This document shows positions 4,721-17,063 of a stretch of 64,000 nucleotides of DNA, in pieces. This DNA is from Actinomycetospora endophytica. GTDB lineage: Bacteria > Actinomycetota > Actinomycetes > Mycobacteriales > Pseudonocardiaceae. The translations under genes were made by a program, and so were the position numbers. How positions within the stretch are numbered: the first letter of the stretch is position 1; each line of letters opens with the position of its first letter. The stretch spans positions 806,001-870,000 of the forward strand of contig NZ_JAJNDB010000002.1 in NCBI RefSeq assembly GCF_021026375.1, in the 5' to 3' direction. The notes under the pieces are model-generated. The model did not search any database. It saw only the letters and a list, made by a program, of their open reading frames with translations, and was not told where the DNA came from.

Positions 4721-4762
4721 GCAGTAATTGACGCTACGGCGTCAATTTCTGCTCACAGGCAC
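4703..4762. repeat. Palindromic repeat element, copy 1 (bidirectional terminator position)
   Basis: The arm GTGAGCAGTAATTGACGC (4717-4734) faces an 18-base complement at 4739-4756 with one mismatch and a 4-base loop. Outer arms GTGCCT/AGGCAC (4703-4708, 4757-4762) extend it. It lies between two convergent genes and contains both stop codons, so it probably terminates both. A second copy of the same 18-base arm is at 23844-23883, so this is a dispersed repeat rather than a one-off terminator. Confidence 0.8.
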
Positions 4763-5715
4763 GAAGTGCACCTGCGGGACCCGCCCATCCAGCCGGGCAG
4801 ATGCAGGATCTTGATCCCGGGCCCGCCGGCGACGACGGGGACGACGGCCTCCGGGTCCGCCGCGACCGGCGCGCCGAGACGCTCGCCGCCGCGGGTGTAC
4901 AGGGTTTCCTGCAGCGCCCCGATCGACGGGAACGATCGCGCCAGCCGCGCCGCGACCTCCGGCGGCAGCACCAGCGTCTGCTCGGACGCCGCCAGCCGCC
5001 CCGGCACCCCCGCCGCGCGGCCCGGAGCGGCGAGGGCGTCGGCGAGCGGCTCGAGGAGGTCGTCGGGGGCGTCGAGGTCGTCCCGGGGGAGCACCTCGGC
5101 GGTCCCACCGATCGACAGCACGGTCACGGCATCTCCCTCGAGTCCGCGCCGCACCGCGAGCCCGGGGTACGGCGACGACGGCGCCTCGGCCAGGCAGCAC
5201 CCGTAGCGGGCGGGCTGGGCGGTCGTGGCCATCGTCGTGACCCCGGGCATCACACCCCCGACCACGGCCAGCGTCAGCGCCAGGGCCCGCCCCACTGGGC
5301 CGTTCGCGTGCGGCCCGGGCCCCAGCAGACCGGTCGACGACGACAGCCCGATCGCGTCCGCCACCGGGCCGTGCACCACGAGCCCGACGGCGGGGGTGCC
5401 GGTCGTCGTCTGCACGCCGAGCAGGTTGAACTCCGGTTCGGTCGCCGCTCGGGCCGCGGCGAGCACGACGGGCAGGACCCCGGGGCGGCACCCGGCGAGC
5501 ACGCAGCAGCCGGCCGCGACCCGGGCGGTGAGCTCGCCGAACAGCGGTGGGACAGCGGCGAGCACGGCGTCCGGATCGCCGACGCCGTCGAGCATCGCCT
5601 CCCAGCGCGACGCCGTCGGGGGCACCACCGGGAGCCCGTCCCCGATGCCCGCCGCGAGCAGGTCCGCCGTCGTCTCCTCGACGCACGCACCGTCCGCGAC
5701 CGGGGCGAACGTCAC
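4753..5715 (-). CDS. GDGLP-domain protein, paralogue 1 of the selenoprotein operon
   Basis: Unknown-function protein of 320 residues, last gene of the six-gene operon. It is clearly paralogous to the next gene upstream (5712-6722) and to the C-terminal half of the 8118-9821 selenoprotein: GDGLPVVPPT near residue 26, a conserved LAGC (Cys76, next to Cys70-Cys71), a central TATTAQPARYGCCLAEAPSSPYPGL block, and VPVVAGGPG near the C-terminus. The protein ends in CTSCL, a possible extra redox pair. Start GTG at 5715 overlaps the upstream stop (GTGA). No signal peptide or membrane segment. A thiol-linked role with the Sec proteins is inferred. Confidence 0.85.
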   Translation of the reverse strand: MTFAPVADGACVEETTADLLAAGIGDGLPVVPPTASRWEAMLDGVGDPDAVLAAVPPLFGELTARVAAGCCVLAGCRPGVLPVVLAAARAATEPEFNLLGVQTTTGTPAVGLVVHGPVADAIGLSSSTGLLGPGPHANGPVGRALALTLAVVGGVMPGVTTMATTAQPARYGCCLAEAPSSPYPGLAVRRGLEGDAVTVLSIGGTAEVLPRDDLDAPDDLLEPLADALAAPGRAAGVPGRLAASEQTLVLPPEVAARLARSFPSIGALQETLYTRGGERLGAPVAADPEAVVPVVAGGPGIKILHLPGWMGGSRRCTSCL

Positions 5716-6722
5716 CGGCGCACCCGCACCGAGCAGAGCTCGGTGCCCCCGAACGACGGGATCCAGGCCGAGTGCTTCCCGGCGCCACCGGCCACCACGA
5801 TGTGCAGCTGCTCGGGGCCGGTGCTGACGGTGTAGGCGTCCCCGTCCGGCTCCACGCCCCACTCGACGAACTGGCGCCGGTTCCCGGGCGAGATCCGGTC
5901 GAGCGGGATGCGGGCGGTGGCCCACAACCGGTCCCGGATCCCGTCGAGGGTCCACCCGTCCCGGTGCAACGTCGCGGCATGCTCCGGGCCCAGCACGAGC
6001 AGGTGCGGGCCGCGCACGTAGACGTTGTTCGAGCCGGACTCGGCCATGGTCCCGGCCACCGTCGTGAGGATCTCCTCGCCGGTGGTGCTGCCGTGGTCGT
6101 TGACGTTGTGGGGCGGCTCCGCGGCCATCACCGACACCACGCCGTCGTCGGGACCGAAGCCCCGCTGCACCCCCAGGCCGGGCCACGGGCTCTCGTCGGA
6201 CTCGGCGAAGCAGAACGTGTACTTCGCGGGCGAGCCCTGGGTCGAGCGGTCCAGCAGCCCGGGCGTGGCGCCCCCGACGTGCAGGAGCACCAGCGAGAGC
6301 GCACGGCCGAGCGTGGCGTTGGCGCGGTTGCCCGGCCCGAAGCAGTTCCCGCCGCCGTGGAAGCCGGCGCGGGCCGGGCCGGACACCAGCACCATCGGCG
6401 CGCACGGGTGGGTGGTGGCCAGCGAGCCGTGCAGGTTGTACTCCGGGGTCACCACCCCCTCGAGCGCCGTGAGCAGCACCGGCATCAGCCCCGAAGGGCA
6501 CCCCGCCATCACCGCGTTGGCCGCGACGGAGCGCAGCGTCGGCGTGACCCCGCTCGGCGGCAGCGGGGCGAGGACCTTGTCGGCGTCGACGGGCAGGTCG
6601 GCGAGCATCGCCTCCACGCGCTCCTCGGTGGGTGCGACCGTCGGCAGCCCGTCACCCCAGCCGCGGTCGTCGACCCAGTCGTCCCAGACCGCGTCCGGCG
6701 GCACCTCGAGCGTGTCGGTCAT
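5712..6722 (-). CDS. GDGLP-domain protein, paralogue 2 of the selenoprotein operon
   Basis: 336-residue cytoplasmic protein with the same architecture as its neighbour: GWGDGLPTVAPT (residues 21-32), VMAGC with conserved Cys75, GNRANATLGRALSL, KYTFCFAESDESPWPGLGVQRGF, and HIVVAGGAGKHSAW at the end. I do not recognise an enzyme family with certainty. ATG at 6722 overlaps the stop of the UGSC selenoprotein (ATGA), implying translational coupling. Because the same domain is covalently fused to a UGSC domain in 8118-9821, it probably works in complex with, or on the same substrate as, the selenoprotein. Confidence 0.85.
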   Translation of the reverse strand: MTDTLEVPPDAVWDDWVDDRGWGDGLPTVAPTEERVEAMLADLPVDADKVLAPLPPSGVTPTLRSVAANAVMAGCPSGLMPVLLTALEGVVTPEYNLHGSLATTHPCAPMVLVSGPARAGFHGGGNCFGPGNRANATLGRALSLVLLHVGGATPGLLDRSTQGSPAKYTFCFAESDESPWPGLGVQRGFGPDDGVVSVMAAEPPHNVNDHGSTTGEEILTTVAGTMAESGSNNVYVRGPHLLVLGPEHAATLHRDGWTLDGIRDRLWATARIPLDRISPGNRRQFVEWGVEPDGDAYTVSTGPEQLHIVVAGGAGKHSAWIPSFGGTELCSVRVRR

Positions 6723-7246
6723 GTCAGCACCCCCATCGTCCGGAAGGTCTCGACGACCCCGGCGAACGCCGCGTCGATGCGCCCGGCCAGCTCGGCGTCG
6801 GACAGCCCGCCGATCGGGTGCTCGATCACGACGAGGCGCGGGTCGGCCTTCCGCGCCTTCGCCTGCGCCTGCACCAGCGGCAGGAACGAGCGGGTGACGA
6901 CGAGGACGGAGCGGAGGCCGCGGCGCTCCAGCTCCAGCGAGTCGTGGAGACTCCACGACGAGCACGAGCCTCAATCACCGATCGCCACGACGGCGAGGCG
7001 GTACTGCGCGGCGAGGTGGTCGAGCAGCTCCGGGTCGGCGCCGGCGGCCGCGCTGGGCTTGGACGCGAGGTGCATCGGCCCGAGGCCCTGATCGACATCC
7101 AGGCGCTGCCCAATGGTCTCGAGCAGCACCGTCGCGCCGGGCTTGGAGTTCGACAGGCCGCAGAGCCCACCGGTCGCGGTCGTGGTGACGGTGTCCTCGA
7201 CGGTCGTCCCGGGCGCCAGGCCGTGGGTGGGGTCGACGATGCGCAT
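6719..7246 (-). CDS. UGSC-motif selenoprotein (in-frame TGA at 6971-6973 read as Sec92)
   Basis: A 175-residue protein interrupted by one in-frame TGA at codon 92. Reading through gives VVAIGD-U-GSCSSWSLHDSLELERRG, and the frame then stays open for 83 codons to a TGA overlapping the next gene's ATG. The upstream half has LSNSKPGATVLLETIGQRL. I recall a family annotated as UGSC (seleno)protein with this U/C-G-S-C motif; not looked up here. The UxxC pair at the start of a helix resembles a thioredoxin-type redox centre. ATG at 7246 has GGAG upstream, 11 bases after the flavoprotein stop. A perfect hairpin begins 11 bases past the TGA (see 6941-6959). Alternative: a pseudogene, disfavoured because the fusion paralogue has TGA at the same motif position. 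Confidence 0.88.
6941..6959 (-). promoter_or_regulatory. Candidate bacterial SECIS hairpin for Sec92
   Basis: Read on the minus strand: GTCGTGGAGTCTCCACGAC, a perfect inverted repeat that folds as an 8-bp stem with a GUC loop. Counting the T of the TGA as 0, the stem runs from +14 to +32 and the apical G-U is at +22/+23. From memory, the apical GU of the E. coli fdhF SECIS is at the same offset. The bulged U of the E. coli element is not evident. SelB binding is inferred. Confidence 0.75.
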
Positions 7247-7257
7247 GGCCGGGCTCC

Positions 7258-8121
7258 TCAGTCCTCGGTGGCGAGCAGGGTGACGACGGCGAGCCCGGCG
7301 CGGCGGCCGTCGGCGGCCGCGGCCAGCAGGGTCGGTGTCGCGATCTCGGTGTCGACGGCGACGTCCCCGGCGGCGAGCACCCGGGGGTCGCCGTTCGCGG
7401 CGTCGAGCAGCGCGAGGCGCGGGCGGGTCGCGGCGGCGGTGAACAGTCCCGAGGCTTCCAGCGTGGTGCCGTCGTCGAGGTGGACGGCTGCCAGCGTCGC
7501 CGGCCCCTCCAGCCCGGTGACGGCGACCCCGCGGCGGACCTCGATCGCCGCCGAGGCGGCGACCTCGCGCTCCGCCGCCGCGGACCACGTCGTCGTGCCC
7601 GCGACCACGGTGACGTGCGCGGCGACCCCGGCCAGCTCCAGGGCCTCGGTCGCGGACCACTCGTCGCCGCCGAGGACGACGACCTTGTTGCCCGCGTGCA
7701 GCGGCCCGTCGCACGAGGCGCACTCGGACAGGCCCCGACCCTCCCACGCGGCCGCATTCGGGATCGCGGCGTCGTCGGGCGCCAGACCCGTCGCGACGAC
7801 GACCGCCCGCGCCTCGGCCGGGCCTTCTGCGGTGTCCAGCGTGATCGCCGGGCCGGTGCGCAGCCCGGTGACCTCGCCGTAGGCGATCTCGACGCCCGCC
7901 GTCATGGCGTCCTCGAGCAGGGCCCCGGCGAACTCCGGCCCGTTCGGCGCCCCCGCACCGCTCGGCGGCCACGCCCGGACCGCGCCGAGCGAGATGAGCC
8001 GCCCGCCGGGCGCCAGCATGTCGTGCGCGACGGTGCGCAGCCCCTGCTCGGCGCAGGTGCGGGCCGCGGTCAGCCCCGCGATGCCCGCGCCGACCACGAC
8101 GACGTCCCAGGGCTCGGTCAC
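7258..8121 (-). CDS. Thioredoxin-reductase-like FAD oxidoreductase
   Basis: 287-residue flavoprotein. The FAD motif VVVVGAGIAGLTAA is at residues 7-20, the redox-active pair CASC (Cys134, Cys137, in SECASCDGPL) sits where thioredoxin reductases have CATC, and AAGDVAVD near the C-terminus closes the FAD site. The second nucleotide motif is degenerate (LGGDEWSATEALELA instead of GxGxxA), so the electron donor may differ from NADPH. GTG start at 8121 overlaps the selenoprotein stop (GTGA). Sandwiched between two UGSC selenoproteins, it is the obvious candidate to reduce their selenenyl-sulfide; this is inference. Confidence 0.9.
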   Translation of the reverse strand: MTEPWDVVVVGAGIAGLTAARTCAEQGLRTVAHDMLAPGGRLISLGAVRAWPPSGAGAPNGPEFAGALLEDAMTAGVEIAYGEVTGLRTGPAITLDTAEGPAEARAVVVATGLAPDDAAIPNAAAWEGRGLSECASCDGPLHAGNKVVVLGGDEWSATEALELAGVAAHVTVVAGTTTWSAAAEREVAASAAIEVRRGVAVTGLEGPATLAAVHLDDGTTLEASGLFTAAATRPRLALLDAANGDPRVLAAGDVAVDTEIATPTLLAAAADGRRAGLAVVTLLATED

Positions 8122-9821
8122 GGTGTCTCCTCGATCCGACGGCTCACGGGTACCCCCTGGACGTGGTTCTGGACGAAGCCGCGGGACTGGTTGCGGCTCT
8201 CGTTGCCGGCCAGCACGATCCCGAGATCCGCGGCCGGGGCGAGCATCGGGACGAGGCGGTCGGGGTCGGTGCCGCCGTAGCGGTCGTCGAGCTCGCCGCT
8301 CGCGACCTTCGCATCGAGGTCGAAGCTGGTCGACCCGACGTTCCACGCGCACCGGGCCAGCGCCGAGGCGGACACCAGCAGGTGCTCGCCGAGGTGGGCA
8401 CGAAGCGCGTCCTTGTCCACGCCGTGGCGGGCGAGCGCGGCGGCGACCGCGGGCCCGAGCACGAGCAGGGGGTGGAACGCCCCGAACTCGAGCCCGGTGT
8501 AGGCCCACGGCCCGATCGCGTCGGCCATCCCGCGGGTCAGGGCGTCGAGGTGGTCGCGAGCGGTCTCGCCGCCGGAGTAGATCGGGGCGCTGACGGTGAC
8601 CACGCTCTGCACGGTGACCACGGAATCGTCGTCGGCGAACCCGCGGTCGGCCCGGAACGAGGGCCAGCCGAGGTCGGCCACGGCGCGGTCGTTCTCGGCG
8701 AGCGCCACGTGGAACGACGACGCGATCGCTCCCTGGTCGGTGTGCTCCGGCGGGATCCGCAGCCCCGCGACGTTGCGCAGGTAGAGCCGGGTGAAGCGCC
8801 CGACCGCGGTGTTGGTCCGCCGTCCCACCCGCATCGCGCCGGTCCCGCTGTTGAACCCGAGCCGTTCGACGACGGGTCCGGAGACGACGACGAGGGGCTC
8901 CCAGCCCGGCGTCGACCCGGCGTCCTGGACCCGCCAGACCGGGTCGGCGAGGCACTCGACGACGGCGAGCAGCACCGGCATGTGCTCCGGCCGGCAGCCC
9001 GCCATCACCCCGTTGACCGCGACGCTGCGCACCGTCGCCTGCCGCTGCTCGGGTGCCAGGACCCCGAGCACCTCGTCGGGGTCGCGACGGGTGTGCGCGA
9101 GGAACGCCGCCACCCGTTCCGGTGTCGGCGGGACGATCGGCAGGCCGTCGGTCCAGCCCCGCGCCTCGAAGTGCTCGGTGACGGTGTCGAGGTCACCGCG
9201 CACGACGACGGCGTCCCGGGCCGGGTCCGCGTCCTCGGTCGGGGTGTCACCGACGGCCGCGGACCCGGCGACGAGGGCATCGACGACGGCGGGCGCGACC
9301 TGCTCGCGCATCTTGGCGCGGAACGTCGCCGTCTCGTCGGTGAGGATCACGCCCGGGTAGCTCACGATCGGGACATGGGGCACTCCGAGGGAGCGCCCGA
9401 TCGCGCGCCCCATGCCCTCGAACCCCGCTCCGCCGATCGCCACGGCCGGGACCCCGGCGCGCTCGGCGGTGGCCGCTGCCCGCATCACGGCAGGCATGCA
9501 CGAGCCTCAAGCGCCCACCGCGGCGACCACCAGGTCGACGCGGTGGGACCGCAGCAGCTCCGGCAGCGCCTCGAGGACCCGGCGCTCCTCGGCGGCCGAG
9601 GCGTGGAAGTTGCCGAACTCCTCCCAGCCCACGAACTCGACGGCGCCGTGCCGCTCGCGCGCGACCTCCGTGATCACCTCGAACATCTCGGGCCCGCGGA
9701 AGAGCTCGTCCCACAGGTAGGCCACGCGGACGCCGGCCAGTTCCGCGGGCCGCTCGTGCTCGGCGACGTCGCCGGTCACGCGTGGGCCGAGCGGCCACAG
9801 GACCTCGTAGTCGGGTTCCAC
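8118..9821 (-). CDS. UGSC selenoprotein fused to a GDGLP domain (in-frame TGA at 9507-9509 read as Sec105)
   Basis: A 567-residue protein if the TGA at codon 105 is read as selenocysteine. Residues 1-200 match the stand-alone UGSC protein around the motif: DLVVAAVGA-U-GSCMPAVMRAAATAERAGVP. From about residue 220 it matches the two GDGLP paralogues: GWTDGLPIVPPTPERV, VMAGC (Cys276), FHVALAEN. GTG start at 9821 has GGAGGAG upstream inside the MFS gene end. An alternative start, ATG at 9497 just after the motif, would give a separate downstream protein, but it has only a weak ribosome site and would split a domain. The fusion ties the two protein types into one functional unit. Confidence 0.85.
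9476..9493 (-). promoter_or_regulatory. Candidate SECIS hairpin for Sec105
   Basis: On the minus strand CTGCC and GGCAG pair around the 8-base loop GTGATGCG. With the T of TGA as 0, the stem starts at +16 and the loop G-U is at +21/+22, one base from the position in the sister gene. The stem is shorter (5 bp) than at 6941-6959, so support is weaker. Confidence 0.55.
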
Positions 9822-9824
9822 CGA

Positions 9825-11123
9825 TCACTCCTCCGCCGTGATGACGCGACCGGACCGGTCGCGCAGGAACACCGCCGCCACCGTGACGATCGCGGCGCCG
9901 AACACCGCGATGCCGACGGCGATGCCGTAGCCGGACGTGGTGGCGACGATGCCGCCGATGAGCGTGCCGAGCCCGGACAGGCCGCGGCCGATGTTGTAGG
10001 CGGCGGCCGACCCCAGTGACCGGATGCGGGTGGGGAACAGCTCGCCGAACCAGACACCGAAGATGCCGAAGTAGCCCAGGAACAGGCTGGAGAGCAGGTA
10101 GAGCCAGACGAAGCTGCCCAGCCCGCCGCCGGACAGCGCGAGCACGAGCATCACCGCGAACACCACGGTCTGCAGCGCGGCGAAGGCGACGAACACCCGC
10201 CGGCGGTTCACCACGTCGGAGAGCCAGCCGGCGAGGATGAACCCCACGAACGAGATCGCCGAGGCCACGTAGAGCACCGTGCTCGCGGCGCCCTTCGAGT
10301 ACCCGAGGTCGCTGGTGAGCAGCGAGGGCATCCAGGTCGTCGCGGTGTAGGGCACCCACTGGCCACCGAAGGCGACGAGCAGCCCGAGCAGCACGAACGG
10401 GAGGCTGTCGCGAGCGACCAGCTGGCGCCACGGCGAGCGGTCGGTCTTGCGGTCCACCTCCGCCGAGAGCTGCCCGGCCGCCTTCCGGGCCTGCAGCTCC
10501 TCCCACTGCCGCGACTCCCGGCAGGAGTACCGCACCCAAACGCAGCCCAGCGCGGGCAGCACGCCGACCAGGAACGCCCACCGCCAGTCCGGTACCACCT
10601 GCGCGACGAGGATCGCCAGCGCGTAGGCGGGCCACAGCGAGGACTGCACCAGCCCGCCGCCGAGCCCACGCCGTTTCGGCGACCAGGCCTCGTTGAGCCA
10701 CGCGAAGCCGACCGCCCACTCCCCGCCGGTGCCGATCCCGGCGATGACCCGCAGGACGACGAAGACCGCGAAGCTCGGCGCGAGGAACACCAGCCCGGTG
10801 GCGATCGAGTAGATGAGGATCGACCAGATCAGCGTCCGCCGGCGGCCGAAGCGGTCCCCGAGCCAGCCGAACGCCACACCGCCGACCGCCGACCCCACGA
10901 GCTGGCCGACGATCGCGACGCTGAACACGCCGGCCGAGACGCCGTACTCCCGCATGATCGCCGTCGCCAGCAGCGTCGGGAGCATGAAGTCGAAGTACTC
11001 CATGCCCCAGCCGAGGCAGGCCGCGCCCAGGATCCGCCGCCGCTCACCGGGCGTGTACTCCGGCGGCGCCGTGACCACGCTCCCGGTGCCCGGCGCGGAC
11101 GTCGGGGTGTCCTCCGTCGTCAT
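9825..11123 (-). CDS. MFS transporter (aromatic acid/organic acid symporter type)
   Basis: 432-residue major facilitator with 12 predicted membrane segments. The loop motif GWLGDRFGRRRTL follows segment 2, and GTGGEWAVGFAWLNEAWSPKRRG follows segment 4, as in metabolite/H+ and aromatic-acid/H+ symporters. First gene of the selenoprotein operon, ATG at 11123 behind GGGAGG, ending 3 bases before the fusion selenoprotein start. It probably imports the organic acid that the operon and the divergent acyl-CoA genes degrade. The substrate cannot be read from sequence. Confidence 0.92.
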   Translation of the reverse strand: MTTEDTPTSAPGTGSVVTAPPEYTPGERRRILGAACLGWGMEYFDFMLPTLLATAIMREYGVSAGVFSVAIVGQLVGSAVGGVAFGWLGDRFGRRRTLIWSILIYSIATGLVFLAPSFAVFVVLRVIAGIGTGGEWAVGFAWLNEAWSPKRRGLGGGLVQSSLWPAYALAILVAQVVPDWRWAFLVGVLPALGCVWVRYSCRESRQWEELQARKAAGQLSAEVDRKTDRSPWRQLVARDSLPFVLLGLLVAFGGQWVPYTATTWMPSLLTSDLGYSKGAASTVLYVASAISFVGFILAGWLSDVVNRRRVFVAFAALQTVVFAVMLVLALSGGGLGSFVWLYLLSSLFLGYFGIFGVWFGELFPTRIRSLGSAAAYNIGRGLSGLGTLIGGIVATTSGYGIAVGIAVFGAAIVTVAAVFLRDRSGRVITAEE

Positions 11124-11248: not shown

Positions 11249-11920
11249 CTAGGACGGCGGCAGCCCCAGCGCGGCGTGCAGGTCCGAGACGGTGAGGTCG
11301 CGGTGGGCGTTCATGAGGGTCACGACGCCCTCGGTGTCGCCGCGGCGCAGCGCGGTGATCATCTTGCGGTGCTCGCGCATCACGCGCCGGCGGCTCTCGG
11401 CGTCGTAGAGGTGCACGGTCCGGTAGGGCTCGCTGCGCCGCCAGAGCCGGTCGATCTCCTCCACCACGAGGTCGAGCCCGGAGTAGCCGAACATCGTGAA
11501 GTGGAACGCCTGGTTCCCCGCGACGATGCCGGCGACGTCGACCCGTTCCACGTCCGCGCCGATGGCCTCGTTCAGCCTGGTCAGCTCCCCGAGCTGCGCG
11601 GACGACAGGCGCGGGAGCGCACGGAGCACCTCGGTCTCGAGGGCCCGGCGCATCAGGTAGACCTGTGCGAGCTCGTCGGCGTTGAGGCGGGTGACGGTGT
11701 AGCCGACGTGCGGCTCGTGGCGCATCACGCCCTCCGCCTCGAGCGACTTGAGCGCCTCGCGCACCGGGATGCGGCTGACCCCCAGCCGGGCGGCCAGCGA
11801 CTCCTGGCGCACCTGCTGGCCGGGGACCAGCTCGCGGGCGCGCAGCATGGCGCGGATCTCCTCGACCACGCGCGCGACGCTCGTGACCCGCCGCGCGGTC
11901 TCCGGTGCGGTCCCGGTCAT
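11249..11920 (-). CDS. GntR family regulator, FCD/FadR subfamily
   Basis: 223 residues: winged-helix DNA-binding domain (about 10-75: GQQVRQESLAARLGVSRIPVREALKSLEAEGVMRHEPHVGYTVTRL) and an all-helical FCD effector domain with metal-ligand candidates (D/H in NQAFHFTMF and MREHRKMI). FCD regulators usually respond to organic acids or acyl-CoA intermediates. It sits between the selenoprotein operon (same strand, 125 bases downstream) and the divergent acyl-CoA operon, so it is the likely local regulator of both. ATG start at 11920. Confidence 0.93.
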   Translation of the reverse strand: MTGTAPETARRVTSVARVVEEIRAMLRARELVPGQQVRQESLAARLGVSRIPVREALKSLEAEGVMRHEPHVGYTVTRLNADELAQVYLMRRALETEVLRALPRLSSAQLGELTRLNEAIGADVERVDVAGIVAGNQAFHFTMFGYSGLDLVVEEIDRLWRRSEPYRTVHLYDAESRRRVMREHRKMITALRRGDTEGVVTLMNAHRDLTVSDLHAALGLPPS

Positions 11921-12039: not shown

Positions 12040-14106
12040 GTGCCGACCGACTGGGACCGGGTCCTGCATCCGCGCTCCGTGGCCCTCGTGGGGGCCTCCG
12101 GCCGCGAGGGCCACCCGATGGCCCGCCCGCTGGCGTGGCTGCGCGACCGGGGCTTCGCCGGCGTCGTCGCACCCGTCAACCCGAAGTACCCGTCGCTCGG
12201 CGGCCTGCCCTGCCACCCGTCACTGGCCGACGTCCCCGGCCCGGTCGACCTCGTCCTCGCGCTGGTCCCGGCCGCGCGAGCCGTCGACACCGTGGAGGAG
12301 GCGGGTGCGGTGGGCGCGGCCGCCGTCGTGGTGTTCGCGTCGGGGTTCGCCGAGGTCGGGGAGGAGGGCGCGGCGCTGCAGGCCGAGCTCGCCGCGGTCG
12401 CGCGCCGCACCGGGGTGCGGGTCCTCGGGCCGAACTGCCAGGGGCTCTACGTCGCGCGGAGCCGGCTCTTCGCCACCTTCACCGCCGCCGGTGAGCGACC
12501 GCTGGAGGGCTCGAGCGGCATCGCCTACGTCGGGCAGAGCGGCGCGATCGGCGGCGCGGTCCTGGACGTAGCGGCCTCCCGCGGCCTCGACCTGACCGCC
12601 TGGGTGAGCACCGGGAACCAGGCCGACGTCGACGTCACCGAGATCGGGCGCGTCCTCGTCGCCGACCCCGACGTGCGCGTCCTCGCCGTCTACACCGAGG
12701 CGCTCCCCTCACCCGAGGACTACGTCCGGCTGGCCGCGGAGGCGCGCGACGCGGGCACCGCGCTCGTCGTGCTGCGCAGCGGACGCACCGACGCCGGGCG
12801 CCGGGCCGCGCTCTCGCACACGGGCGCGATGCTCGCCGACGGGACCGCCTTCGAGCTGGTGTCGCGCGCGTACGGCGTCGTCACCGTCGACGACGTCGAG
12901 GAGCTGCTCGCGGCCGCGACGTTGCTGCGGACCCAGGCGCCGCCGCGGGGCCGCAACGTCGCCGCGGTGACCAGCTCGGGCGGGGCGGGCATCCTCGCCG
13001 CCGACCGCTGCGCCGACCTCGGGCTGGCCGTCCCCGAGCTGGGCGAGGAGACCCGGGAGAAGCTCGCGCTGCGGGTGCCCGCCTTCGGCGCCGTGGGCAA
13101 TCCGGTCGACGTCACCGCCCAGCTGTTCAACGACGGCGGCGGCGCGTTCGGCGAGGTGTGCGCCCTGGTCCGCGCCGACCCGGCCGTCGACGCCGTGCTG
13201 ATCCTGCTGACGATGCTCGTCGGGGACACCGCCACCGCGCTGGCGGCCGATCTGGCCGACACCGTCGTCGAGGGTCCGCCCGGCGGGCCGCCGCTCGCCG
13301 TCGTGTGGATGGCCGGCGAGGACGCGACGGTCGAGGCGCGCGCCGTGCTGCGCGTCGCGGGCATCCCGGTGTTCTCCTCGGTCGCGGTGGCCACCCGCGT
13401 GCTCGCCTCCGTCACGCCCCGACCCGCGCCCCCGGCCGTCGTCGTCGAACCGGCCGTGGCGCCACCCGGTGACGGCTGGGATCTGCTCGACGCCTTCGGG
13501 ATCCCGGTCCCGCGCTCGGCGGCGGTGGTCGATCCGGACGAGGCATCGGGGGCCGTCACCGCCGTCGGGGGGACCGCCGTGCTCAAGGCGGTCGCGGCGG
13601 GCCTCGAGCACAAGACCGAGGCCGGCGGGGTGCGTCTCGGGGTCACGGCTGACACGGCGACCGGTCAGGCTGCGGACCTGCTGGCCGGGGTCGCGGACAC
13701 CGTCCTGGTGCAGGAGCAGGTGGCGCCCGGGGTGGAGCTGCTGGTCGCCGTGGACGGCGGGCGGGACGGGTGGCCGCCGGTGCTCACCGTCGGGCACGGG
13801 GGAACCGGCACCGAGATCCACCGCGACGTGGCCCACGCGCTGGCGCCGGTCAGCCCGACGACGGCCCGGGAGCTGCTGGCCTCGTTGCGCTGCTGGCCGC
13901 TCCTCGCCGGCCACCGCGGCGCGGCCCCGGCCGACGTGGACGCCGCCGTCGACGTGATCGTGCGGGTCGGGCGCGCCGCCGTCGTCCCCGGGCTGCGCGA
14001 GCTCGAGGTCAACCCGGTCGTCGTCGGGACCTCGGGGGCGGTCGCCGTCGACGTGCTGCTCGACCGGGAGGACGCTGCGACCCCGAGCCCCGAGGAGGAG
14101 CGCTGA
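12040..14106 (+). CDS. NDP-forming acyl-CoA synthetase (CoA-binding plus ATP-grasp)
   Basis: 688-residue single-chain acyl-CoA ligase of the ADP-forming acetyl-CoA synthetase superfamily. The N-terminal CoA-binding domain starts LHPRSVALVGAS; a succinyl-CoA-ligase-like flavodoxin domain follows (GPNCQGLY, YVGQSGAIGGAVLD, with the catalytic SHTG at about residue 264); the C-terminal third is ATP-grasp (AVLKAVAAGLEHKTEAGGV, ELEVNPVVV). It converts a carboxylate, ATP and CoA to acyl-CoA. First gene of a four-gene operon divergent from the GntR regulator, it probably commits the substrate to beta-oxidation-like steps. Confidence 0.93.
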   Translation: MPTDWDRVLHPRSVALVGASGREGHPMARPLAWLRDRGFAGVVAPVNPKYPSLGGLPCHPSLADVPGPVDLVLALVPAARAVDTVEEAGAVGAAAVVVFASGFAEVGEEGAALQAELAAVARRTGVRVLGPNCQGLYVARSRLFATFTAAGERPLEGSSGIAYVGQSGAIGGAVLDVAASRGLDLTAWVSTGNQADVDVTEIGRVLVADPDVRVLAVYTEALPSPEDYVRLAAEARDAGTALVVLRSGRTDAGRRAALSHTGAMLADGTAFELVSRAYGVVTVDDVEELLAAATLLRTQAPPRGRNVAAVTSSGGAGILAADRCADLGLAVPELGEETREKLALRVPAFGAVGNPVDVTAQLFNDGGGAFGEVCALVRADPAVDAVLILLTMLVGDTATALAADLADTVVEGPPGGPPLAVVWMAGEDATVEARAVLRVAGIPVFSSVAVATRVLASVTPRPAPPAVVVEPAVAPPGDGWDLLDAFGIPVPRSAAVVDPDEASGAVTAVGGTAVLKAVAAGLEHKTEAGGVRLGVTADTATGQAADLLAGVADTVLVQEQVAPGVELLVAVDGGRDGWPPVLTVGHGGTGTEIHRDVAHALAPVSPTTARELLASLRCWPLLAGHRGAAPADVDAAVDVIVRVGRAAVVPGLRELEVNPVVVGTSGAVAVDVLLDREDAATPSPEEER

Positions 14107-14843
14107 TGGGTGGCATCACGCTGGAGGTGATCGACGCCGTCGCCCTGCTGACCGTCGACGCCCCCGAAGTGCGCAACGCGCTCACCCCGCGGATGGGCCG
14201 CGAGCTCGCGGAGGCGTGCGACGCGGTCGACGCGGACCCGGCGGTCGGCGCCGCGGTGGTGCGCGGTGCGGGCGGCACGTTCTGCTCCGGTGCCGACCGG
14301 CGGACCTGGGATCCGTCCGCGGACCAGGCCGAGGACGCGACCTTCCGCGACACCGGTGCGGTCTACGGCGCGTTCCGCCGGGTCGGCACGCTGGCCGTCC
14401 CGACGATCGCCGCGGTGCGCGGCGCCGCCGTCGGGGCCGGGATCAACCTCGCGCTCGCGACCGACCTGCGCGTCGTCGCCCGCGACGCCCGCCTGCTCGC
14501 CGGGTTCCTGCGCATCGGGCTGCATCCCGGTGGCGGGTTCTTCACCCTCGCCGGACGCAGCGCCGGCCGGGAGGCGACCGCCGCGATGGGCCTGTTCGGC
14601 GAGGAGGTCGACGGGGCCCGCGCGGCCGAGCTCGGGCTCGCCTGGGCCGCGGTCGACGACGCCGAGGTCGAGGACACCGCCCTCGCGCTCGCCGCGGTCC
14701 CGGCCCGCGACCCGGACCTCGCCCGCGAGGCCGTCCGCTCGTTCCGCACCGAGCTCGGGCCGCCCGGCCTGCCCTGGGACGCGGCCCTGGAGTTCGAGCG
14801 CGCCACCCAGATGTGGTCCCAGCGCCGCCGCACCGGGCGCTGA
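14106..14843 (+). CDS. Enoyl-CoA hydratase/isomerase family protein
   Basis: Crotonase-fold protein, 245 residues. Oxyanion-hole segments are visible as GAGGTFCSGADRRTW and AAVRGAAVGAGINLALATDLRV. The first usual catalytic Glu region is LRIGLHPGGGFFTLAGRSAGREA, which lacks the standard Glu pair, so hydratase, isomerase or hydrolase activity is uncertain. ATG overlaps the synthetase stop by one base (TGATG). It acts on the CoA ester made upstream; cytoplasmic. Confidence 0.92.
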   Translation: MGGITLEVIDAVALLTVDAPEVRNALTPRMGRELAEACDAVDADPAVGAAVVRGAGGTFCSGADRRTWDPSADQAEDATFRDTGAVYGAFRRVGTLAVPTIAAVRGAAVGAGINLALATDLRVVARDARLLAGFLRIGLHPGGGFFTLAGRSAGREATAAMGLFGEEVDGARAAELGLAWAAVDDAEVEDTALALAAVPARDPDLAREAVRSFRTELGPPGLPWDAALEFERATQMWSQRRRTGR

Positions 14844-14862
14844 CCCGAGGAAGGACCGACCC

Positions 14863-16002
14863 GTGATCTTCACGCCCACCGTGCTCTCCCCGGCCGAGGA
14901 CGCGCTGCGTCACGAGGTCCGCCGCTGGCTGGACGCGGCCCTGCCCGCCGACTTCCGGCCCGGTCTCGGCCTCGGCGGGCGGCACGACCCGGAGTTCAGC
15001 CGCGCGCTCGCCGCCCAGGGATGGGTCGGGATGTCGATCCCCCGCGAGTACGGCGGCGCCGGGGCGAGCACCGTCGAACGCTTCGTGGTCGTCGAGGAGC
15101 TGCTCGCGGCGGGCGCTCCGATCGCCGCGCACTGGATCGCCGAGCGCCAGACCGCGCCGACGCTGATGCGGTTCGGCACCGAGGAGCAGCGGCGGTGGTT
15201 CCTGCCCCGGATCGCGGCGGGCGAGTGCTTCTTCTCGCTCGGGATGAGCGAGCCCGACGCCGGGTCCGACCTCGCCTCGGTGCGCACCACGGCCACCCGT
15301 ACCGAGGACGGCTGGCGGGTCGACGGCACCAAGGTGTGGACGACGAACGCGCACCTCAACCATTTCTTCGTCGTCCTCTGCCGGACCTCCGCCGCCGACG
15401 ACCGCCACGCCGGGCTCTCGCAGCTGATCGTCGACCTGTCCTCGCCCGGGGTGACGGTCTCCCCGATCCCGCTGATCGACGGCGAGCTGCACGTCAACGA
15501 GGTGGTGCTCGACGGCGTCCACGTGCCCGACGAGCGGGTGCTCGGCGAGGTCGGCCAGGGCTGGGCCCAGGTGACCGCCGAGCTCGCGCACGAGCGCTCC
15601 GGTCCCGACCGCTACCTCTCGGTCCTGGGGCTCCTCCGGGCGTTCCTGGCCGACCACGGGAAGGACCTCGACGACTCCGACGCGGCCGCGTTCGGACGGA
15701 TTGCGGCGCGGCTGTGGTCGATCCGCCAGCTCTCGCTGTCGGTGGCCCGGGCCCTCGAGCAGGGCGAGGCCCCCGCGACGGAGGCGGCGCTGGTCAAGGA
15801 TGTGGGCACGATCTTCGAGCAGGAGGTGGTGGAGACGATGCGTGAGGTCGCCGCGCTCGAGATCGACCCCGAGGGGGAGACGCAGTTCGAGCGGTTGCTC
15901 GCCGAGTGCGTCCTCAACGCGCCGAGCTGGACGCTGCGCGGCGGCACCACCGAGGTGCTGCGCGGGATCGCCGCCAAGGCCCTGACGCGGGCCGCCCGGT
16001 GA
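14863..16002 (+). CDS. Acyl-CoA dehydrogenase (subunit 1 of a likely pair)
   Basis: 379 residues from the GTG at 14863, with GAGGAAGG upstream. Acyl-CoA dehydrogenase fold: N-terminal helices to PREYGGAGAST, the FAD/substrate region FFSLGMSEPDAGSDLASVRTTATR, and the C-terminal LRGGTTEVLRGIAAKAL. The usual catalytic Glu position is not obvious in the C-terminal region, as in many heterodimeric (FadE-type) actinobacterial enzymes. Its stop overlaps the next dehydrogenase (GTGA), supporting a two-subunit FAD enzyme, as known for steroid and cyclic-acid degradation. Confidence 0.92.
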   Translation: MIFTPTVLSPAEDALRHEVRRWLDAALPADFRPGLGLGGRHDPEFSRALAAQGWVGMSIPREYGGAGASTVERFVVVEELLAAGAPIAAHWIAERQTAPTLMRFGTEEQRRWFLPRIAAGECFFSLGMSEPDAGSDLASVRTTATRTEDGWRVDGTKVWTTNAHLNHFFVVLCRTSAADDRHAGLSQLIVDLSSPGVTVSPIPLIDGELHVNEVVLDGVHVPDERVLGEVGQGWAQVTAELAHERSGPDRYLSVLGLLRAFLADHGKDLDDSDAAAFGRIAARLWSIRQLSLSVARALEQGEAPATEAALVKDVGTIFEQEVVETMREVAALEIDPEGETQFERLLAECVLNAPSWTLRGGTTEVLRGIAAKALTRAAR

Positions 16003-17063
16003 GCGCCCCGGCGATCGAGAGCGGCGAGCTGCGCGACGCGGTCGCCGCGGTCCTGCGTGACCGCGTCACCCCGGAGGTGCTCGAGGCGGCCGAGCGGGAC
16101 GGCTGGGCCGCGGGAGTGTGGGAGCCGCTCGCCGACGGCGGGTTCGCGGCCGTCTCCGTGACCGAGGCCGCCGGGGGCTCCGGCGGATCCGTCGCGCAGG
16201 CGTGCGCGGTGCTCGAGGCCGTCGGCGCCGCCGCGGTGCCGGTCCCGGCGGCCGAGACCGGGCTGCTCGCGGGGCGGCTCCTCGCGTCGGCCGACCTGGA
16301 GCTCCCGGACGGTGCGCTCTCCACGACGTCGTCCCCGGGGCTGGCCCTGGGCTCCGGCGGGCTGGCCGGTGCCGTCGCCCGGGTGCCGTGGGCGCGGGCG
16401 GTGTCCGCCCTCGCGCTGCTCGCCGACGGGCCGGACGGACCCGTCGTCGTCCTCGTGGATCCCGGCGCCGCCCGGATCACCCCGGGCCGCAACCTCGCGG
16501 GCGAGCCCCGTGATCACGTCGATCTCGACGGCGTGCGGCCGCTGGTGACCGCGCCCGCCCCGCCCGACGCGGGCGTCGAGCTGCGGCGGCGTGGCGCGCT
16601 GTCGCGTGCCGCCCTCGTCGCCGGGGCGTGCCGGGCGGTCATGGACCTGACCGTGCGCTACACCGGCGAGCGGGTGCAGTTCGGGCGTCCGGTCTCGGCG
16701 TTCCCCGCGGTCGCGACGCACCTGGTCCGGATCGCCGAGCAGGCCGAGACCGTCGCGATGGCCGCGCGCAGCGCGGCGGCGAACGCGGGCGAGGAGGGGG
16801 AACCGGCGCCCCTCGACGTCGCCGCGGCGGCCGTCGTCGCGTCGGAGGCCGCCGGGGCCGTCGCGGCGGCCGCGCACCAGGCGACCGGGGCCATGGGGAT
16901 GACCCGTGAGTTCGCGCTCGGAGCTCTGACCCGGCGGCTCTGGTCGTGGCGCGACGAGTGGGGTGGTGGACGGGTGTGGGCCGCCGACCTGGGCCGCTCG
17001 CTGGCCGCGGGCGGGGCGGACGCGTTCTGGCCGACGCTCTCCCGCGGGCTGGTCATCCCGTGA
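15999..17063 (+). CDS. Acyl-CoA dehydrogenase (subunit 2 of a likely pair)
   Basis: 354 residues; acyl-CoA dehydrogenase C-terminal domain is best preserved: LVAGACRAVMDLTVRYTGERVQFGRPVSAFPAVATHLVRIAEQ and HQATGAMGMTREFALGALTRRLWSWRDEWG. The N-terminal half is degenerate and Ala/Gly-rich. GTG start overlaps the previous stop. Paired with the upstream subunit it probably forms a heterotetrameric dehydrogenase for bulky acyl-CoA substrates. Its 3' end overlaps a convergent membrane-protein gene by 11 bases. Confidence 0.9.
   Translation: MSAPAIESGELRDAVAAVLRDRVTPEVLEAAERDGWAAGVWEPLADGGFAAVSVTEAAGGSGGSVAQACAVLEAVGAAAVPVPAAETGLLAGRLLASADLELPDGALSTTSSPGLALGSGGLAGAVARVPWARAVSALALLADGPDGPVVVLVDPGAARITPGRNLAGEPRDHVDLDGVRPLVTAPAPPDAGVELRRRGALSRAALVAGACRAVMDLTVRYTGERVQFGRPVSAFPAVATHLVRIAEQAETVAMAARSAAANAGEEGEPAPLDVAAAAVVASEAAGAVAAAAHQATGAMGMTREFALGALTRRLWSWRDEWGGGRVWAADLGRSLAAGGADAFWPTLSRGLVIP

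Follow-up and report, generated by a model that had tools for sequence, protein, structure and literature searches.

A predicted UGSC selenoprotein operon in Actinomycetospora endophytica and its possible relationship to glycine and proline reductases

Does an in-frame TGA in the actinobacterium Actinomycetospora endophytica end a gene or encode selenocysteine (Sec), and, in the second case, what would the resulting protein do? The codon lies in a stretch of 64,000 nucleotides (assembly GCF_021026375.1, contig NZ_JAJNDB010000002.1, positions 806,001 to 870,000), which we call the window and whose own numbering is used throughout. The gene that contains it, at 6719..7246 on the minus strand, is predicted to encode a 175-residue protein of the UGSC family with Sec92 in the motif GD-U-GSC. 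An initial annotation of the window had proposed a selenoprotein here, with a hairpin resembling a selenocysteine insertion sequence (SECIS) behind the TGA. Judging from its sequence and those of its relatives, this short UGSC gene is very probably a genuine selenoprotein gene, belonging to a known family that has so far been a functional orphan; the initial reading was supported overall, each check that was run being favourable. New here are a second UGSC gene, a tripartite operon with gene fusions on both sides, a predicted fold that is not that of thioredoxin, and a relationship to GrdB and PrdB of the glycine and proline reductases, which together lead to a testable mechanism.

The in-frame TGA of the short UGSC gene

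The reading frame opens with the ATG at 7246 and runs for 91 codons to the TGA at 6971..6973 (minus strand), the predicted Sec codon, which is aligned to an invariant Cys. It continues for 83 codons to a second TGA (6719-6721), which overlaps the ATG (6720-6722) of the following gene, coding for a partner protein called COMP, as ATGA. This arrangement, and the GD-U-GSC obtained when the TGA is read as Sec, are as first annotated. Given the overlap, translation of COMP is probably coupled to read-through of the TGA. An open stretch of 83 codons would by itself be unremarkable at such high GC content. The read-through of UGSC goes far beyond chance because it is conserved, as judged from a family match across the TGA, a single stop in every match among close relatives, frozen codons and covariation.

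Pfam family PF24696 (UGSC) spans residues 3-168 of the short protein across the TGA (3.4e-34, 118.9 bits against a cut-off of 25), and the U-G-S-C motif sits at the conserved Sec/Cys column in both UGSC proteins of the window, the second being the fusion protein described below. In NCBIfam, to which the group of Haft contributes, the equivalog model NF041046 (UGSC_fam, cut-off 125 bits) gave 109.8 bits for the short protein and 45.5 for the fusion protein, both below the cut-off, and 156 and 133 bits for two Cys forms (L077 and L097, the latter from Saccharopolyspora). In a set of 61 genomes (the own genome and 60 relatives), 16 genomes held 32 matches to PF24696, and each match contained one stop codon, TGA in 30 and TAG in 2. 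In all of those examined as loci (30 of the 32) the stop stood at the U of UGSC, and a sequencing error or a pseudogene was rejected on these grounds. A broader sample of 396 genomes from the phylum, with up to eight candidates scored per genome, yielded PF24696 matches in 29; 36 of the 46 matches held one TGA and 10 had no stop, some of the latter being partial or weak. One actinobacterium of this sample (G419) carried five matches with one TGA inside each. Finally, a contig scan, from which we kept 80 loci of 137 relatives (25 close loci and 55 others), gave 72 UGSC sites caught by the motif pattern, with TGC in 30, TGT in 5, TGA in 23 and TAG in 14.

A protein search returned 17 UGSC homologues. 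Seven of the twelve sequences compared have Cys at the Sec site, a check that the initial annotation had proposed, and three (96, 107 and 107 residues) stop one residue before the TGA, which bears out its warning that gene callers truncate such genes. In an alignment of 46 sequences (A4), the invariant positions were the Sec/Cys column itself, the G-S-C next to it and F121. In the 9 pairs compared, moreover, the nonsynonymous rate (dN) was lower than the synonymous rate (dS) before as well as after the TGA.

The SECIS-like hairpin of the short gene lies at 6941..6959 (minus strand) and consists of a 7 bp stem and an AGUCU loop. The repeat GUCGUGG-AGUCU-CCACGAC starts 14 nt past the T of the TGA and has its apical GU at +22/+23, both positions matching those first given. 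Taken alone, the hairpin is mildly unusual (z of -1.2 for the 42-nt region and -2.7 for the stem), and 2% of random synonymous recodings give an equally good fold. Its conservation is more telling. Among 26 close sequences, 7/7 testable codons at +4..+11 were frozen, compared with 5/40 elsewhere (P 1.3e-5); one of them, the Ser codon AGT, was kept in 26/26, and AGT is absent from the seven window genes of the codon-usage set. The same trend, non-significant, was seen in the fusion subfamily (4/6 against 33/90, P 0.15) and in the C subfamily (6/7 against 22/45, P 0.076). Covariation in the hairpin reached 0.271, compared with 0.073 in shuffled alignments (0 of 500 shuffles as high) and at most 0.131 in slid versions, in a set of 17 distinct sites from whose sequences the stem was itself defined. 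In these, 98.3% of stem cells pair and three pairs have changed on both sides. The fusion subfamily was excluded from this set because its hairpin sits in another register. The full 7-pair stem was present in 0 of 35 Cys forms, which are an unmatched control because their amino-acid sequence differs too. The proposed hairpin is thus conserved, with compensatory changes. The genus and some relatives also have a third UGSC subfamily (L023-L033, L037 and L038), with the motif AD-U-GSCTSCSVHD and a hairpin of its own, GUCGUGC-AGUGU-GCACGAC.

The genome holds the machinery that such decoding calls for, the presence of which had been named as a check. selB and selA adjoin, and selD and a tRNA-Sec with anticodon UCA are also present, all above cut-offs (the selB match covers model positions 2-341 of 581); the tRNA-Sec gene is on the same contig as selA and selB. 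selA was found in 15 of the 16 UGSC genomes, the exception (G004) being 83% complete, and also in 28 of the 45 genomes that had no UGSC, so its presence discriminates little. Within the genus, SelA, SelB and SelD occur in the proteome of A. chiangmaiensis, and formate removal by this species is described as selenium-dependent in passages of PMC7176365; a literature search for Actinomycetospora and selenocysteine turned up only work on formate dehydrogenase.

Sec decoding has also been published for another stop codon. Passages of PMC5330540 (and its reference 56) report UGSC-motif selenoproteins and UAG-Sec recoding for genomes of the Geodermatophilaceae. UGSC genes are common to both systems, theirs with TAG and a CUA tRNA, whereas A. 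endophytica uses TGA and tRNA-Sec(UCA). In a relative from the same order (G051), both UGSC sites read TAG and the tRNA gene next to selA has the anticodon CUA, which is consistent with the decoding published for that family (PMC5330540, as far as its passages on recoding go). The CUA tRNA of G051 (L170:1497-1592) scored 64 bits as tRNA-Sec, yet ARAGORN calls it tRNA-Pyl, and annotation pipelines may be making the same mistake.

A second UGSC gene and its conserved partners

Upstream of the short gene we found a second predicted UGSC selenoprotein gene, which goes beyond the initial annotation. It lies at 8118..9821 on the minus strand, has a GTG start, and would encode a UGSC-COMP fusion protein of 567 residues with predicted Sec105 in GA-U-GSC; its in-frame TGA, at 9507..9509 (minus strand), is at the aligned site. 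PF24696 matches residues 6-184 (5.6e-26, 92.1 bits against 25), and the C-terminal domain is homologous to COMP (5712-6722). Among NCBIfam models at E<=0.1, the fusion protein matched UGSC_fam and gave one chance hit. The two TGA sites of the window share the 12 bases TGA GGC TCG TGC. TGA at the fusion-type site recurs in 8 of the 61 genomes (the own included) and in 10 of the 80 loci, and in 8 of the 61 genomes the fusion and short genes lie about 2.5 kb apart. Downstream of this TGA, dN was lower than dS in the six pairs compared. For the second gene, a putative SECIS hairpin in another register was placed at 9474..9500 on the minus strand (minimum free energy -14.5 kcal/mol, z -0.9).

Both UGSC genes belong to a minus-strand series, which reads in order GntR/FCD regulator, major facilitator superfamily (MFS) transporter, UGSC-COMP fusion, a flavoprotein resembling thioredoxin reductase (TrxR-like), short UGSC, COMP and COMP2. 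The junctions are 3 nt between the MFS and fusion genes, a GTGA overlap between fusion and TrxR-like genes, 11 nt between TrxR-like and UGSC genes, the ATGA already described, and GTGA between COMP and COMP2. Ten of the 80 loci (L052-L060 and L071) keep the whole series from MFS to COMP2, and seven of these have the GntR gene as well. Among type strains of the genus, A. succinea and A. termitidis carry the cluster.

The TrxR-like gene (7258..8121, minus strand) has a GTG start and encodes the motif CASCDG and a Pyr_redox_2 domain (1.8e-19); against the NCBIfam thioredoxin reductase model TIGR01292 (TRX_reduct) it scored 115.3 bits, below the cut-off of 343. CAxCDG was kept in all 24 TrxR-like open reading frames (ORFs) of the 25 close loci. 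COMP (5712..6722, minus strand; 336 residues) belongs to no Pfam or NCBIfam family. COMP2 (4753..5715, minus strand; 320 residues, GTG start) is a divergent paralogue, 35% identical to COMP (alignment A6), and like COMP matched no NCBIfam model at E<=0.1. The COMP family is nevertheless large, 6,029 of the 7,998 proteins scored matching at E<=0.001.

UGSC and COMP are closely tied across relatives. When COMP and COMP2 are taken as stop-to-stop ORFs and not as called genes, 77 of the 80 loci have a same-strand COMP ORF no more than 300 nt from UGSC. A TrxR-like ORF was present in the retrieved DNA of 40 loci (24 of the 25 close ones and 16 of the 55 others), at 300 nt or less from UGSC in 25 of them and within 5 kb in 13. 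Fusions occur on either side. In all 14 TAG loci (L061-L076 except L071 and L073), which come from the Geodermatophilaceae genera Geodermatophilus, Blastococcus and Modestobacter, a single frame free of stops over 260 codons holds both TrxR and UGSC; seven of these loci have no ATG, GTG or TTG in the 30 codons 5' of the UGSC part. This fusion goes unmentioned in the passages of PMC5330540 that deal with UAG-Sec recoding. The pattern caught 11 loci in which UGSC and COMP form one frame, including P. acaciae (L073) and a metagenome-assembled genome of the Bacillota (L089). That UGSC is found fused to either neighbour argues for a physical TrxR-UGSC-COMP unit. Another locus carries, behind a UGSC-COMP pair of the Cys type, a TrxR that ends in a thioredoxin domain (L092:9516-10835).

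The wider surroundings look catabolic. In the window, the MFS transporter gene (9825..11123, minus strand; MFS_1 1.1e-40) stands 3 nt before the fusion gene, and the regulator gene (11249..11920, minus strand; FCD 1.1e-21, GntR 4.3e-15) precedes it. On the plus strand follow a gene for a coenzyme A (CoA) ligase of the ATP-grasp/Succ_CoA_lig type (12040..14106), an ORF with an enoyl-CoA hydratase-like gene (13770..14843, start uncertain; ECH_1 5.4e-37) and ORFs with two acyl-CoA dehydrogenase genes, ACAD1 and ACAD2 (14266..17063, starts uncertain). Of the 25 close loci, 22 have the ligase gene, 21 the hydratase gene, 21 ACAD1 and 14 ACAD2, in varied arrangements. At six further loci (L089, L092, L097, L106, L107 and L118) the neighbours include CoA-transferases, TctC, and NMT1/ABC and solute-binding transport genes, besides a LysR regulator, an acyl-CoA dehydrogenase and a thiamine pyrophosphate enzyme.

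Compared with the known UGSC family (PF24696; NF041046), the window proteins share the Sec/Cys in GD-[U/C]-GSC and the length of about 170 residues. They differ in falling under the NF041046 cut-off and in that a single operon combines two UGSC genes with those for the TrxR-like and COMP proteins. Passages of the 2008 survey of aquatic metagenomes (PMC2398784) count UGSC among the most abundant selenoproteins there, with 255 sequences, and report, as is also seen here, a fusion to a second domain, there named Unknown_1. Several selenoprotein genes in one operon are also described for SAO and Tso, which are said to hold six and three, respectively, compared with the two UGSC genes here (PMC13188914, passages on these operons).

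Predicted fold and remote homology to GrdB and PrdB

The AlphaFold2 model of the short UGSC protein (pLDDT 89.9, pTM 0.84) shows five alternating strand-helix units and no beta hairpin, with strands at 28-32, 58-62, 84-90, 112-118 and 137-141, and the helices that follow each of them at 38-53, 72-81, 93-108, 119-131 and 150-170. Sec92 comes after strand 3, where the third main helix begins, and the best structural neighbours of the model are doubly wound alpha/beta domains. According to this model, the fold is predicted to be Rossmann-like and not that of thioredoxin. In the thioredoxin fold, an antiparallel hairpin is part of the central sheet and the CxxC comes after the first strand. It was rejected for UGSC on the model, which has no beta hairpin and carries the motif after the third strand. 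A Trx-like fold had been proposed for UGSC in 2008 (passages of PMC2398784), and a 2026 review places UGSC beside Trx-like families (passages of PMC13188914). The model of COMP (pLDDT 87.3) gave no good structural match.

We compared profiles with hhalign, whose E-values here are single-pair. UGSC against the merged Sec domains of GrdB and PrdB gave 95.1% (3.3e-8), Sec aligned on Sec, and masking the motif left 93.7% (1.8e-7). In the controls, 60 column shuffles gave at most 1.1%, reversed profiles 0.2 and 0.6%, and the COMP profile 1.3%; the known relatives GrdB and PrdB gave 99.5% with each other. The merged profile contained 21 sequences (11 GrdB-type and 10 PrdB-type) drawn from 30 loci of a PF07355 search, after leaving out L132, L148, L149, L152 and L157 as incomplete, L145-L147, which had no Sec part, and L139. 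Two further positions agree without gaps: a Glu at U+15 (44/46 UGSC, 11/11 GrdB and 9/10 PrdB) and a Gly at U+18 (45/46, 11/11 and 9/10). Membership of UGSC in the TrxR family was rejected, the TrxR profile giving 0.4%.

UGSC thus has in common with the glycine and proline reductases the profile of the Sec domain, the Sec position, Glu+15 and Gly+18, and, as in glycine reductase, where GrdB- and GrdE-type genes are adjacent, the Sec subunit gene stands beside that of a partner, here COMP. The systems differ in that UGSC has no direct PF07355 match at E<=10, COMP is not GrdE-like, and the context includes acyl-CoA dehydrogenases. A search with PF04723 (GrdA) matched no genome, controls included. 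Genes for GrdB with TGA were also seen in actinobacteria of the same phylum (L133-L144), several of them adjoining GrdE-type genes. In the passages that bear on these systems, the subunit that binds the substrate is said to be GrdB, with PrdB as its homologue (PMC13188914), and fluoroacetate C-F cleavage is proposed for an operon with an MFS antiporter, an iron-sulphur (radical-SAM-type) oxidoreductase and relatives of GrdB and GrdE (PMC10838667); that operon, like the UGSC operon, includes a transporter.

Candidate function and rival explanations

On balance, we lean towards the view that the two UGSC proteins (with predicted Sec), COMP and the TrxR-like flavoprotein form a reductase whose mode of action resembles that of glycine and D-proline reductase. 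Most likely, UGSC is a reductase that depends on Sec, takes an organic acid as its substrate within CoA-linked catabolism and is recharged by the TrxR-like protein, with substrate and chemistry as we infer them here. The mechanism is drawn from the analogy with GrdB and PrdB (PMC13188914) and with the proposed fluoroacetate reductase operon (PMC10838667), so far as the passages on both describe them. A small organic acid would be imported and then held with COMP. The selenolate of Sec92 would attack an activated C-X bond of the acid, with departure of the leaving group, and Cys95 would resolve the intermediate to give a Sec92-Cys95 selenenylsulfide. The CxxC of the TrxR-like flavoprotein would reduce this bond, and the product could enter CoA-linked beta-oxidation. 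A broader proposal, which we advance tentatively and at slightly less than even confidence, is that UGSC is a third branch of the glycine/proline-reductase superfamily, that TrxR-like, UGSC and COMP proteins form an aerobic reductase module cleaving C-X bonds of organic acids within CoA-linked catabolism, that COMP is a new class of partner unrelated to GrdE, and that Cys versions extend across actinobacteria and proteobacteria.

Several observations weigh against the reductase reading. Taken singly, the profile matches are weaker, at 60% for GrdB (8.8e-5) and 68% for PrdB (4.9e-5), the Sec columns coinciding in both; the E-values are those of single pairs, and the GrdB/PrdB profile comprises only 21 sequences. 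PF07355 was not reported for the scanned UGSC proteins at E<=10, in a search whose HMMER filters drop most weak matches; since there is no direct match, we claim a relationship at the superfamily level and not membership of GrdB or PrdB. COMP was rejected as a relative of GrdE (0.4% against a GrdE profile from 11 of 14 loci), so the partner subunit differs from that of glycine reductase. The TrxR-like protein has GGDEWSA where those of L092, L097 and L118 have GGGDSA, and with so degenerate a pyridine-nucleotide motif its electron donor may not be NADPH. Besides, 40 of the 80 loci show no TrxR-like ORF within the retrieved DNA. CoA ligase, hydratase, ACAD1 and ACAD2 are found in 0, 1, 0 and 0 of the other 55 loci; being limited to the close subfamily, these neighbours suggest that the substrate may differ across the UGSC family. 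Finally, the hairpin proposed for the second gene does not stand out, as 35% of synonymous recodings fold equally well.

One could argue that the roles are reversed, COMP being the enzyme proper and UGSC its dedicated electron carrier, as thioredoxin is for ribonucleotide reductase. COMP is indeed the larger protein, its family is widespread, many of its residues are invariant, and it is found fused to UGSC. Against these points stands GrdB, which is among the closest profile relatives of UGSC and is described as the substrate-binding subunit (PMC13188914, in its passages on GrdB), and we consider the reversal unlikely while granting it some weight. We give a little less credit to UGSC as a thiol-disulfide oxidoreductase of the thioredoxin kind, or a peroxidase-like protein, in an operon that repairs or protects catabolic enzymes. 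The UxxC motif and the TrxR-like gene seen at 40 of the 80 loci would fit such a role; the predicted model with five strand-helix units and no beta hairpin, the profile alignment to GrdB/PrdB and the conservation of a large partner, COMP, alongside UGSC would not. It seems distinctly improbable that UGSC is a Sec-dependent acyl or thioester transferase, whose selenol would accept an acyl group from CoA or from a COMP-bound intermediate without reductive C-X cleavage. The frequent CoA ligase, hydratase and dehydrogenase genes of the 25 close loci, and a CoA-transferase III near UGSC in L107 and L089, are what a transferase would predict, whereas the invariant second Cys and the TrxR-like fusions point to a redox cycle, and the other 55 loci have no CoA genes save for one match. 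That the TGA is a real stop, leaving a 91-residue protein and a relic or separate gene downstream, can be set aside almost entirely: an 83-codon open stretch would not be rare at this GC content and the short form is present in databases, but the Pfam match crosses the TGA, the site varies among TGA, TAG and Cys, dN is below dS past the TGA, the hairpin codons are frozen, the COMP start overlaps the read-through stop, and the Sec gene set is complete.

The UGSC literature covered here gives, in its passages on these selenoproteins, no function, no homology to GrdB and no operon with TrxR, in agreement with the initial annotation, which had called UGSC families annotated but functionally undescribed; Haft & Gwadz 2023 and Haft & Tolstoy 2025 lie outside this coverage. 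In the window, standard annotation would cut UGSC selenoprotein genes twice within one operon. Linking UGSC to the Sec domain of GrdB and PrdB, to COMP as a conserved partner and to a TrxR-like donor gives a so far orphan family a concrete hypothesis, which involves three purifiable proteins. The chemistry of glycine and proline reductases is best known from anaerobes. If the reductase reading is true, chemistry of the GrdB/PrdB kind would be placed in an acyl-CoA catabolic setting.

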